Assembly: GCA_947629685.1 (NCBI GenBank)
Contig: CANREP010000002.1
Span: forward strand, 1-64,000
DNA length: 64,000 bases
Source: an uncultured Phascolarctobacterium sp.
GTDB lineage: Bacteria > Bacillota > Negativicutes > Acidaminococcales > Acidaminococcaceae
Reading direction: 5' to 3'
The position numbers and the translations under genes are program-made. A model generated the notes under the pieces. That model made no database searches and was not told the DNA's origin. It was given only the letters and a program-made list of their open reading frames with translations. Below are positions 3,998 to 38,993 of the stretch, one piece after another; position 1 is the first letter of the stretch; each line of letters starts with the position of its first letter.

Positions 3998-6622
3998 ATG
4001 AAATATATGACCGGCAATGAGATTCGGGAAAAGTTTCTTAAATTTTTCCAGGATCGTGGGCATTTAATGCTGCCCAGTGCTTCACTGATTCCGCAGGACG
4101 ATCCTACTTTGTTGATTATCGGTGCAGGTATGGCGCCGTTTAAACCGTTTTTTACCGGCAAGATGAAACCGCCGTCTCCGCGTATTACTACTTGTCAGAA
4201 ATGTGTGCGTACCGGCGATATTGAAAATGTAGGCCGCACTGCGCGCCATCATACTTATTTTGAAATGCTCGGTAACTTTTCTTTTGGCGACTATTTCAAG
4301 AAAGAAGTAATTCCCTGGAGCTGGGAATTTATTACCAAAGAACTCGGCATTCCGGCAGAAAAATTATGGATTACTATTCACACGGAAGATGACGAAGCTT
4401 TTGATATTTGGCATAATGTGGTCGGCGTACCGGCAGAACGCATTGTGCGTCTGGAAGAAAACTTCTGGGAAATCGGCAGCGGCCCCTGCGGTCCGTGTTC
4501 TGAAATCCATGTTGATTTAGGTGAAGAGCGCGGCTGCGGTAAACCTACCTGCGCTGTAGGCTGTGATTGCGACCGTTTCCTGGAAATCTGGAATCTGGTA
4601 TTTACCCAATATAACCAAAACGAAGACGGAACCTATTCTCCGCTGAAAAATAAGAATATCGATACCGGCGCCGGCTTGGAACGTTTGGCTTCTGTAATCC
4701 AGGGCAAGCCTTCTAACTTTGAAACTGACCTTATTTTCCCGATTATCGAATATGCTGCCAAGGTTGCCGGAGTAGAATACGGCAAAGATAAAAAGACCGA
4801 TGTATCTTTGAAAGTTATTGCTGACCATGCCCGCAGCATGACCTTTATGATTGGCGACGGTATCCTTCCTTCTAATGAAGGCCGCGGTTATGTATTGCGC
4901 CGTATCCTGCGCCGTGCTGTTCGTCATGGACGTTTAATCGGCATTAACAGCATGTTCCTTGCTGGCGCTGTAGATGTAGTAATCGGTATGTTCGGTCATA
5001 TCTATACTAATCTGGCTGAAAAACGTGAATACATCCAGAAAGTTATTGAGATGGAAGAAACCAGTTTCCTGCGGACTCTGAAACAGGGAAGTGAGCTGCT
5101 TAACGAAGAAATCGCCAAATTAAAAGCTGCTGGTGAAACCGTATTGGACGGCGCTACTGCTTTTAAACTGAATGATACATTTGGCTTCCCGTGGGAATTA
5201 ACAGCAGAAATTTTGGAAGAACAGGGCCTTACCATGGATAAGGAAGGTTTTGATGCTGCTCTTGAAGTACAGCGTAAAATGGCGCGTGACGCCCGTGATG
5301 ACAAAACCGGACGCCCCGTTATCTATAATACCCGCGGCATCGACATTGCCGGGTTGAAAGTAGATGAAGCTGCCCAAGGCGGCAAGATTGTTAAACTGTA
5401 TCCGGCTCATGATGCCCAGCCTGTAGAAAATGCTGCCGACGGACAAGAAGTTGCCGTTATCTGCGATGTAACAGCTTTCCATGCTGAAGGCGGCGGGCAG
5501 CTTGGTGATATTGGCCACATTATTGCGCCTACCGGCGTAATCGATATTACTGTTACCAAAAAACTGCCGGACGGAGCTACCATCATGGTTGGTACTGTTA
5601 CGGAAGGAACTGTGGCAGTAGGCGATGCCGTTGCTTTTGAAGTTAATACCAACCGTAAAAATGATATTGCCCGTAACCATACTGCAACACATCTGCTGCA
5701 TGCAGCTTTGAAACAGGTATTGGGCACACACGTCAATCAGGCAGGCAGCTATGTTGGTCCTGACCGTCTGCGTTTTGACTTCTCTCATTTCTCTCAGGTA
5801 ACTGAAGAAGAATTGCAGCAGGTAGAAGCGATTGTTAATGAACAAATCCTGGCAGGCAAAAATGTACAGATTGAAGAACTGCCGATAGAGGAAGCAAAAA
5901 AACGTGGCGCTACCGCCTTGTTTGGTGAAAAATACGGCAATATCGTCCATGTAGTAACTGTTCCTTCTTTCTCTATGGAATTCTGCGGCGGCAGCCATGT
6001 TGCCAATACTGCCCAGATTGGTATGTTCAAGATTATTTCCGAAGCAAGCAGCGGCGCCGGTGTGCGTCGTATCGAGGCTGTAACCGGGCATGGAGCAGTT
6101 GCTTATGTCAATGAGACCGAAGCGATGCTTAAAGGGCTGGCGGCTGAGCTGAAGTGCCGTGTGCATGATGTTCCGGCTCGTCTGGAAGCGTTGCAGGCAG
6201 AATTGAAAGCGGCGCAGAAAAAAGCTGACGAACTGGCAGGCGAAATTGCCAAAGCCCAGGTTAGCGATGTTTCCGATAAAGTTCGTGAAATAAAAGGCGT
6301 ACCTGCGCTGGTACAGCAAGTACATGTGGACAGTATTGACGCGCTGAGAAATCTTGGCGACCAGATGCGTGATAAAATTGGCGGCGTTGTCATGCTGGCT
6401 GCTCCGATGGATGGCGGCAAGATCAGCATCCTGACCATGGCTACTAAAGATGCGGTTGCTAAAGGCGCCCATGCAGGCAATATTGTGAAAGCAGTTGCAA
6501 AAATCTGCGGCGGCGGCGGCGGCGGTCGTCCCGATATGGCGCAGGCAGGCGGTAAGGACGCTTCTAAACTGGCAGAAGCGCTGGATGCAGCCTGGGGCAT
6601 TATTGAAGAACAAATAAAATAA
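3998..6622 (+). CDS. alaS: alanyl-tRNA synthetase
   Basis: Class II synthetase charging tRNA-Ala, with proofreading of Ser and Gly. Order of domains: N-terminal catalytic core (TGNEIREKFL, then PSASLIPQDDPTLL), tRNA-binding helices, editing domain with HTATHLLH and the zinc-site CGGSH, a coiled-coil stretch (about 720-760), and the C-Ala domain with a glycine tract CGGGGGGRPDMAQAGG. At 874 residues it is a normal length. The start is ambiguous among TTG 3977, ATG 3989 and ATG 3998. The last has AAGGAGAG at a workable distance and matches the family start MKYMTGNEIR. It has its own promoter and terminator. Confidence 0.97.
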   Translation: MKYMTGNEIREKFLKFFQDRGHLMLPSASLIPQDDPTLLIIGAGMAPFKPFFTGKMKPPSPRITTCQKCVRTGDIENVGRTARHHTYFEMLGNFSFGDYFKKEVIPWSWEFITKELGIPAEKLWITIHTEDDEAFDIWHNVVGVPAERIVRLEENFWEIGSGPCGPCSEIHVDLGEERGCGKPTCAVGCDCDRFLEIWNLVFTQYNQNEDGTYSPLKNKNIDTGAGLERLASVIQGKPSNFETDLIFPIIEYAAKVAGVEYGKDKKTDVSLKVIADHARSMTFMIGDGILPSNEGRGYVLRRILRRAVRHGRLIGINSMFLAGAVDVVIGMFGHIYTNLAEKREYIQKVIEMEETSFLRTLKQGSELLNEEIAKLKAAGETVLDGATAFKLNDTFGFPWELTAEILEEQGLTMDKEGFDAALEVQRKMARDARDDKTGRPVIYNTRGIDIAGLKVDEAAQGGKIVKLYPAHDAQPVENAADGQEVAVICDVTAFHAEGGGQLGDIGHIIAPTGVIDITVTKKLPDGATIMVGTVTEGTVAVGDAVAFEVNTNRKNDIARNHTATHLLHAALKQVLGTHVNQAGSYVGPDRLRFDFSHFSQVTEEELQQVEAIVNEQILAGKNVQIEELPIEEAKKRGATALFGEKYGNIVHVVTVPSFSMEFCGGSHVANTAQIGMFKIISEASSGAGVRRIEAVTGHGAVAYVNETEAMLKGLAAELKCRVHDVPARLEALQAELKAAQKKADELAGEIAKAQVSDVSDKVREIKGVPALVQQVHVDSIDALRNLGDQMRDKIGGVVMLAAPMDGGKISILTMATKDAVAKGAHAGNIVKAVAKICGGGGGGRPDMAQAGGKDASKLAEALDAAWGIIEEQIK

Positions 6623-37458: not shown

Positions 37459-37487
37459 AAGACAAAAACATAGAAATGTTGTATAAT
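37459..37487 (+). promoter_or_regulatory. promoter of the aminotransferase-like gene
   Basis: Perfect TATAAT at 37482-37487; the -35 position (AAGACA, 17-nt spacer) is a partial match. Transcription would start inside the inverted repeat at 37494-37513. Confidence 0.5.
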
Positions 37488-37493
37488 AATTAT

Positions 37494-37513
37494 CTGTATA
37501 TGTTATTATACAG
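37494..37513 (+). promoter_or_regulatory. operator-like inverted repeat
   Basis: CTGTATA, 6-nt spacer, TATACAG: a perfect 7-bp dyad located 7-26 nt after the -10 box. A repressor bound here would block the promoter. No regulator is identified. Confidence 0.4.
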
Positions 37514-37582
37514 TATTTTGCGTGATGAAAATATGAATTTTATTTGTAATCATATATTTTTCTTAAATTGGAGGTTTAGAGT

Positions 37583-38449
37583 ATGGCTGAAGAGCTGGTT
37601 TTAATCAATGGCGAAATAATGCCGAAAAATGAAGCTTATATTGATATTGACGATCGTGGTCATAATTTTGGCGACGGTGTTTTTGAAATCGTGCCGGTTT
37701 ATAACGGGCGTTGTTTTGCGCTGTTACCGCATATGAACAATTTGTTTGAATCTGTTATCCACAGTAAGATTCCCGGCGTTTACATGATTGAGGAACTGGT
37801 GGAATTCCATGAAAATCTGCTGCAGGCTGCTGGAGTCAGCGAATGTGAGGTTTATACCCAGATTACCCGCGGCAGCGGTGCTTACGGCTTAGCTTACCCT
37901 GAACAATGCATACCTAATCTGACCATGTTCATCGTACCTGTCGACAGAAAGGCTTTGGCAGAAAGACGTATTAAAGGAATAAATCTGGTTACGGAAGAAG
38001 ATGTCCGCTGGCAGCATTGTGATATCAATACCCTGAACAGGATGCCGGAAGCTATGGCTAAACAGAAAGCATATATTTCCAATGCTTTTGACGCGTTGTT
38101 TGTACGTGATGGGAAGATTACGGAAACTACGGAAGCAAGCTTTTTTATTTATAAAGACGGTATATTGTGGACGCATCCAGAAAATAACTGTATTCATAAG
38201 AATATTACCAGAAAACTGCTGACAGAAAGGCTGGCTCCTGATCTGCAGCTGCAGGTAATCGAACGCGCTTTTGATAAAGAATTTGCTCTGAAAGCAGACG
38301 AGGCTTTTATCTGCGGCCCGCGCTGTGAATTTATGCCTGTTGTGAAAATTGATCGTGGTTTTATTGGCGACGGTAAACCTGGTCAAATGGCAGCTTCTCT
38401 GCAAAATGCATATGAGAAATTCGTAGCCGCCGAATGTCCTGCCAAATAA
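37583..38449 (+). CDS. class IV aminotransferase homologue lacking the PLP lysine
   Basis: 288-residue fold-type IV protein closest in pattern to D-amino-acid transaminase of Bacillus (DAAT). It aligns without gaps through the active-site region, yet key residues differ. The Schiff-base lysine (DAAT K145, in CDIKSLN) is Asn149 in CDINTLN. Arg50, which binds the PLP phosphate, is Asn53 in HMNNLF. Tyr31 is Phe34 (FGDGVFE). The glutamate that pairs with the pyridine N is kept (E181, ITETTEAS). Gene, RBS (GGAGG) and promoter are intact, so it is probably a maintained non-catalytic or refunctioned protein. It is 4 nt before an ECF S-component. Confidence 0.85.
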   Translation: MAEELVLINGEIMPKNEAYIDIDDRGHNFGDGVFEIVPVYNGRCFALLPHMNNLFESVIHSKIPGVYMIEELVEFHENLLQAAGVSECEVYTQITRGSGAYGLAYPEQCIPNLTMFIVPVDRKALAERRIKGINLVTEEDVRWQHCDINTLNRMPEAMAKQKAYISNAFDALFVRDGKITETTEASFFIYKDGILWTHPENNCIHKNITRKLLTERLAPDLQLQVIERAFDKEFALKADEAFICGPRCEFMPVVKIDRGFIGDGKPGQMAASLQNAYEKFVAAECPAK

Positions 38450-38453
38450 TACA

Positions 38454-38957
38454 ATGCAGAATAAGAAGCTGATACTGGGGGCGCTTTTGATGGCGCTGAC
38501 CGTGATAATGCAGTCGCTGCGACTGGTACTGCCTTTGCCGCCTGTTTTAAGCACATTTATTATCGGTACGCTGGTAAATATGATGCTTATCGTAACTTGC
38601 AGGCTCAGCGGTTTTAAAGCGGCATTTCTGCTGACCTTATTACTGCCGCTTTTGGCGTATATGCAGGGACAGTTGCTTTTACCGCTGCTGATACCGGTCG
38701 TCGTGGTTGGAAATCTGCTGTATGTGACGCTGCTGCGAAAAAAAAGAACTTTTCTTCTCACTTATTTTGTACCGCCGATAATAAAAACTGCGGCTATGTA
38801 TATTGGTGCGTGGCTGGCGCTGTATTTTCTGCAGATGGCAAACAGCTTGATAGCTGCCAATATCTTATTTGCCATGAGTGTGCCTCAGTTTCTGACCGGA
38901 GTTGCAGGGGTTTTAGCGGCTGAAAAGATTTTACAAAAAGTAAAAAATATATATTGA
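38454..38957 (+). CDS. ECF transporter S component-like membrane protein
   Basis: 167 residues with about five or six membrane helices. The first helix contains ALLMAL, an AxxxA pattern by which S components dock to EcfT. Overall length and layout match substrate-binding S components of energy-coupling factor transporters (vitamin, metal or tryptophan uptake). No substrate can be assigned. No ribosome-binding site of its own is evident; it starts 4 nt after the aminotransferase-like gene, so translation is coupled. EcfA/EcfT genes are not in the window. Confidence 0.7.
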   Translation: MQNKKLILGALLMALTVIMQSLRLVLPLPPVLSTFIIGTLVNMMLIVTCRLSGFKAAFLLTLLLPLLAYMQGQLLLPLLIPVVVVGNLLYVTLLRKKRTFLLTYFVPPIIKTAAMYIGAWLALYFLQMANSLIAANILFAMSVPQFLTGVAGVLAAEKILQKVKNIY

Positions 38958-38965
38958 TTATTATT

Positions 38966-38993
38966 GCGCTGCTCCGCGAGGGCAGCGCTTTTT
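38966..38993 (+). terminator. terminator after the ECF S component
   Basis: Stem GCGCTGC / GCAGCGC with a 9-nt loop, followed by T5. Confidence 0.85.

Follow-up and report, generated by a model that had tools for sequence, protein, structure and literature searches.

A conserved homologue of D-amino-acid transaminase lacking the catalytic lysine in Acidaminococcaceae, encoded beside a predicted ECF transporter S component

Textbooks treat the class IV aminotransferases as PLP enzymes, with a single lysine as their defining residue. Pseudoenzymes derived from PLP enzymes are already known, and two fold type I systems invite comparison with the protein described here: LCB1/SPTLC1 of serine palmitoyltransferase, a PLP-enzyme fold that has lost its lysine, is maintained, and dimerises with an active paralogue; and the PMP-dependent ColD-type dehydratases, which have an aminotransferase fold without the Schiff-base lysine and carry His in place of Lys. 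In the D-amino-acid transaminase (DAAT, Dat) of Bacillus sp. YM-1 (PDB 1DAA), the Schiff-base lysine is Lys145, and Arg50, which contacts the PLP phosphate, acts at the cofactor together with Leu201, Gly203 and Thr241, as we take to be established from the 1DAA structure. Our searches of the open-access literature gave no account of a fold type IV clade without the lysine or of an orthologue that lost it more than once, and no paper mentioning both DAAT and Phascolarctobacterium.

We analyzed a stretch of 64,000 nucleotides from an uncultured Phascolarctobacterium sp. (contig CANREP010000002.1, hereafter the window), in which an open reading frame for a DAAT homologue is followed after 4 nt by one for a small membrane protein, both of them intact. 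The features of this locus are as follows.

37459..37487, + strand: promoter, −35 AAGACA, 17 nt, −10 TATAAT; a consensus match
37494..37513, no strand: inverted repeat CTGTATA-N6-TATACAG directly 3' of the −10 box, read from the sequence
37570..37574, + strand: ribosome-binding site GGAGG, read from the sequence and invariant in 6/6 aligned orthologues
37583..38449, + strand: lysine-less DAAT homologue (pseudoenzyme), 288 aa, ATG start, TAA stop; Aminotran_4, TIGR01121, and 1DAA by sequence and fold
37739..37741, + strand: codon 53, Asn at the position of DAAT Arg50 (PLP phosphate), by alignment
38027..38029, + strand: codon 149, AAT, Asn at the position of the Schiff-base Lys145, by alignment
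38454..38957, + strand: predicted ECF transporter S component, 167 aa, intact; AF2 and Foldseek, with homologues L222 and L146 passing PF12822
38966..38993, + strand: intrinsic terminator closing the two-gene unit, a 9-bp stem with 7 GC pairs (hairpin 38966-38988) and then a T-run

The two genes are probably cotranscribed. The original prediction, made from the letters of the window, had described an intact gene with a good ribosome-binding site and a promoter, and the first two points stand: the frame runs from ATG to TAA with no frameshift, behind a GGAGG. The promoter fares less evenly, because the −35/−10 pair is kept upstream of the aligned orthologues while the consensus scan on its own does no better than chance, with 6 matches against 5.4 expected. 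The right arm of the inverted repeat and the following TATTTTGCGTG are common to L115 and L096, and the left arm partly so; the repeat is operator-like and might perhaps serve as an operator. An Rfam search returned no riboswitch upstream of the pseudoenzyme gene.

The 288-aa protein matches Pfam Aminotran_4 (E = 9.7e-31), and its best NCBIfam model is TIGR01121, D-amino-acid transaminase, with 231.2 bits, below the equivalog cut-off of 277.45 bits. It does not belong to PabC, for which it scores 89 bits against 231 for DAAT and lacks the catalytic lysine. The AF2 model (pLDDT 95.1), which answers a call for structure prediction made together with the original prediction, has the DAAT fold of type IV: the first Foldseek match is 1DAA, with an rmsd of 1.4 Å and TM-scores of 0.91 and 0.95. 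The protein resembles 1DAA in fold, length and overall motif order at about 34% identity, and retains its Glu177, Arg138, Tyr88 and His47. Alignments with phmmer and MAFFT pair Asn149 with Lys145, Asn53 with Arg50 and Phe34 with Tyr31, and the region of the active-site lysine is free of gaps, just as had been read from the sequence; they add losses that the first reading did not list: Arg98 to Tyr101, His100 to Leu103, Leu201 to His205, Gly203 to Asn207 and Thr241 to Pro246. Where the canonical DAAT has the carboxylate trap Y31/R98/H100 (PMC10003956), the 288-aa protein has F34/Y101/L103. Thus, in contrast to 1DAA, it lacks Lys145, Arg50, Arg98, His100, Leu201, Gly203 and Thr241 and has a new conserved set there; it also differs in this way from the lysine-bearing DAATs of other Negativicutes (Pelosinus, Sporomusa and others), which are its orthologues by tree and keep the complete DAAT active site. 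The ColD-type dehydratases differ from it too, since here Lys has given way to Asn and the phosphate-site residues are missing.

A search of 59 Acidaminococcaceae genomes detected a homologue of the 288-aa protein in 45 of them, covering 14 of the 18 genera, the full-length ones being 49-92% identical. Asn149 is invariant (37/37 aligned orthologues of the family, 41/41 in the tree set) in sequences from isolates and MAGs alike, and the named records in this clade are Phascolarctobacterium, Succiniclasticum and other Acidaminococcaceae. The loss of the lysine in the family has a single origin in the tree, with 100% support; the refuting case named with the original prediction, close relatives keeping Lys around one isolated mutated copy, does not apply, as the whole Acidaminococcaceae clade has Asn. 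The gene is absent from nine genomes of a genus, g2, that we take to be Acidaminococcus by elimination. Between the window gene and its nearest relative, dN/dS is 0.027 (dN 0.042, dS 1.57), a rough ratio because dS is near saturation; across clade pairs it ranges from 0.027 to 0.094, similar to that of active DAATs. The protein thus combines loss of the catalytic residue with strong purifying selection, as a pseudoenzyme does, which bears out the earlier suggestion that it is maintained.

When the 41 members of the clade were compared with 60 lysine-bearing Negativicutes DAATs, Lys145 was found replaced by Asn149 and His100 by Leu in 41/41, and Leu149 by Arg153 in 40/41, while the Arg50 position is Arg in 60/60 of the lysine-bearing proteins and Asn in 34/41 members of the clade. 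Further replacements are Arg98 to Tyr or Phe, Leu201 to His205 and Gly203 to Asn207, as well as Thr241 to Pro246 and Ser180 to Glu184 in most members; the replaced positions are invariant or nearly so among the 60 lysine-bearing DAATs. Arg50, Gly203 and Thr241 are mostly lost in the window's clade, and Thr205 varies in Succiniclasticum-type sequences. The clade-specific conserved residues at DAAT cofactor or substrate positions comprise N149, R153, L103, Y101, N53, H205, N207, P246, R247, E184 and P38, and the equivalent of Glu177 (invariant), Arg138 and scaffold residues are retained. To judge from the alignment, these changes look like remodelling of the pocket and not decay. No newly conserved lysine appears at an evident active-site position in the clade alignment.

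In a class IV search of the 59 genomes, no other class IV aminotransferase accompanied the pseudoenzyme in any genome but G037, where there is a second one. Pairing with an active class IV paralogue as a heterodimer was rejected on this ground: without a second homologue, the model of an inactive partner of an active paralogue is excluded for nearly all pseudoenzyme genomes, and this sets the protein apart from LCB1. The genome of the window (G000, reported 100% complete) has no other class IV aminotransferase, and so neither IlvE nor PabC of the class IV family. Nearly all genomes of the family encode a MurI-type glutamate racemase, which makes DAAT activity dispensable for D-glutamate.

In a sampling across the whole class Negativicutes, most DAATs keep the lysine, and lysine-less orthologues occur in three further groups. 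Rumen Selenomonadaceae orthologues (L156, L157, L159-L162, L165 and L152-L154; about 5001-5846 in most) have Ala, Gly or Asn at this position and retain Arg50 in most members and Arg98, Leu201, Gly203, Thr205 and Thr241 in all. Two Veillonellaceae MAG orthologues, L164 and L167 (about 5001-5800), have Leu, and one Negativicutes MAG DAAT (L143:3942-4793, the same as L075) has Arg there together with Cys at His100. In a tree of 121 sequences built with the Lys column removed, the lysine-less groups lie separately among lysine-bearing sequences. A 70-row tree requires the state to switch four times between presence and absence of the Lys, with four switches again at both the 5% and 95% bootstrap points; a single origin for all lysine-less DAATs was rejected (AU p = 1.5e-8). 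The trees thus point to about four separate losses, of which the Arg case (one long-branch MAG) and the Leu case (two MAGs) rest on less material. Because the Selenomonadaceae group mostly keeps its phosphate-site residues, the routes of loss differ, and the whole pocket has been rebuilt only in the window's clade. As minor observations, an oxaloacetate/pyruvate-carboxylase-like gene follows the lysine-less DAAT in L156, L160 and L153 and likewise follows the DAAT in the lysine-bearing relative L149, and L220 (G313:C12:117205-119075) has tandem lysine-bearing DAAT paralogues, one of them on a long branch.

The 167-aa protein has the membrane fold of an S component, as the original prediction held. 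Its AF2 model (pLDDT 89.1) gave the S components ThiT, RibU and FolT as top Foldseek matches with probability 1.0 and TM-scores of 0.53-0.65, the E-values being only 0.04-0.1. The window protein itself gets no match to PF12822 (cut-off 30.7 bits), and two homologues exceed the cut-off, L222 with 38.1 bits and L146 with 36.2 bits. Although the predicted fold is like that of ThiT, RibU and FolT, no sequence family of known substrate matches: Pfam and NCBIfam gave only weak Trep_Strep/MptD matches, and a PDB sequence search found no relative. The protein belongs to a Negativicutes family of its own, with invariant Q20, R23, N87, K111, Q145 and T148. The window's genome also encodes the ECF T component, with two PF02361 matches above the cut-off.

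By comparing match coordinates in the 45 family genomes with the pseudoenzyme, we found the S component adjoining it in 39, elsewhere in one and undetected in five (G037, G040, G042, G049 and G056). In Succiniclasticum-type genomes it stays while the other neighbours have changed, and no recurrent metabolic neighbour of the pseudoenzyme was found besides it. Conservation of the neighbour, proposed earlier as a check, is thus confirmed as frequent adjacency but not as an obligate one. The g2 genomes keep the S component with no DAAT homologue, and outside the family this S component is the immediate neighbour of a lysine-bearing DAAT in L072 and in genomes of f30 and f35, and lies at a distance of 1-5 kb from one in Sporomusa-type genomes. 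Since lysine-bearing DAATs share this neighbour and each gene also occurs alone, the pairing is older than the lysine loss and not obligate. Such an ancient and loose linkage does not suffice to account for the loss, and the idea that the neighbour explains it is not supported.

We slightly favour the reading that the protein is a maintained, neofunctionalised pseudoenzyme derived from an ordinary DAAT, whose pocket would bind another small molecule in a cytosolic binding or sensing role. An ordinary D-amino-acid transaminase would have become a pseudoenzyme in the ancestor of the Phascolarctobacterium/Succiniclasticum group of the Acidaminococcaceae, the residues holding the PLP phosphate and the D-amino-acid carboxylate giving way to a new conserved set while fold type IV was kept; the product might then bind or sense a small molecule in the cytosol, possibly a compound imported via the neighbouring S component. 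The parts of this reading differ in strength. The active-site residues argue strongly that the protein does not transaminate, and their conservation gives moderate grounds for supposing that the former cofactor pocket holds a different small molecule. The third part, that the protein serves in the cytosol to bind or sense a ligand, perhaps an imported compound, is only faintly suggested. A role as sensor or carrier of the transported compound is plausible and possible, and such a partnership is weakened by each gene being found alone and by a linkage older than the lysine loss. PLP is an unlikely ligand in the window's clade because the phosphate-cup residues are gone as well.

Several other explanations can be considered. 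It is rather unlikely that PLP or PMP still binds at the site without the lysine and supports a slow reaction or one that needs no lysine, in the manner of the PMP-dependent dehydratases with His for Lys: the invariant Glu177 equivalent and the cofactor residues kept by the lysine-less rumen Selenomonadaceae speak for it, but in the window's clade the state of Arg50, Gly203, Thr241 and Thr205 makes phosphate binding doubtful, and neither His nor another nucleophile stands in the place of Lys. Conversion into an enzyme that needs no PLP and carries out a different reaction in the remodelled pocket could account for the new conserved polar set (Asn149, Arg153, His205, Asn207, Arg247 and Glu184) and the very low dN/dS; we regard this as fairly improbable, since the PDB searches and the open-access literature searched gave no PLP-independent enzyme of fold type IV and the only recurrent neighbour is the S component, not a metabolic gene.

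That the protein acts through protein-protein contacts, as a regulatory subunit, a scaffold or a partner of an ECF module, with an irrelevant pocket, would agree with a mode common among pseudoenzymes, with the adjoining S component in most genomes and with the EcfT-type proteins of the genome; the clade-specific conservation at the old active site and the lack of a class IV partner in the genome make it distinctly unlikely. The clade conserves Lys178, Lys191 and Lys255, one of which might form the aldimine so that transaminase activity is kept. This is very unlikely: Lys191 is a conserved residue of the Lys145-bearing DAATs too, Lys178 corresponds to Thr174 of DAAT in the alignment, Lys255 is outside the known cofactor contacts, and the carboxylate-trap and phosphate residues are lost too. 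A sequencing error, an isolated mutation or a decaying pseudogene, for which nothing but the missing residue speaks, is refuted by 41 orthologues, from both isolates and MAGs, that share the Asn, by a dN/dS of 0.03 and by the lack of frameshifts, and is scarcely conceivable.

Taken across the class, the form without lysine throughout one clade and the three further losses suggest a hidden non-catalytic role of DAAT. We propose tentatively, as a view somewhat short of even in our estimate, that Negativicutes DAAT orthologues have a lysine-independent function, kept through about four losses (to Asn; to Ala, Gly or Asn; to Leu; to Arg), and that the Acidaminococcaceae protein is a remodelled ligand-binder working with the S component. 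Genome annotation will label the 288-aa protein a transaminase, and predictions of D-amino-acid pathways for Phascolarctobacterium or Succiniclasticum based on this gene are probably wrong.

The linked S component offers a direct experimental handle on the function of the pseudoenzyme. Vitamin B6 was rejected as its substrate because PdxS is absent from the window's genome and present in 13 family genomes, most of them with the pseudoenzyme, so that no complementary pattern emerges; G058, of the same genus as G000, has PdxS. In family f33 (L222-L225) the S component lies upstream of a folE-like gene in four genomes, followed by folP/folB/folK-like genes in three of the four (named by eye); such a folate-type context was seen only in this family, and nothing near the window supports it. 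DHPS is encoded in nearly all Acidaminococcaceae genomes and many of these have no chorismate-binding enzyme at all, a pattern that would fit import of a folate precursor and serves as a lead.
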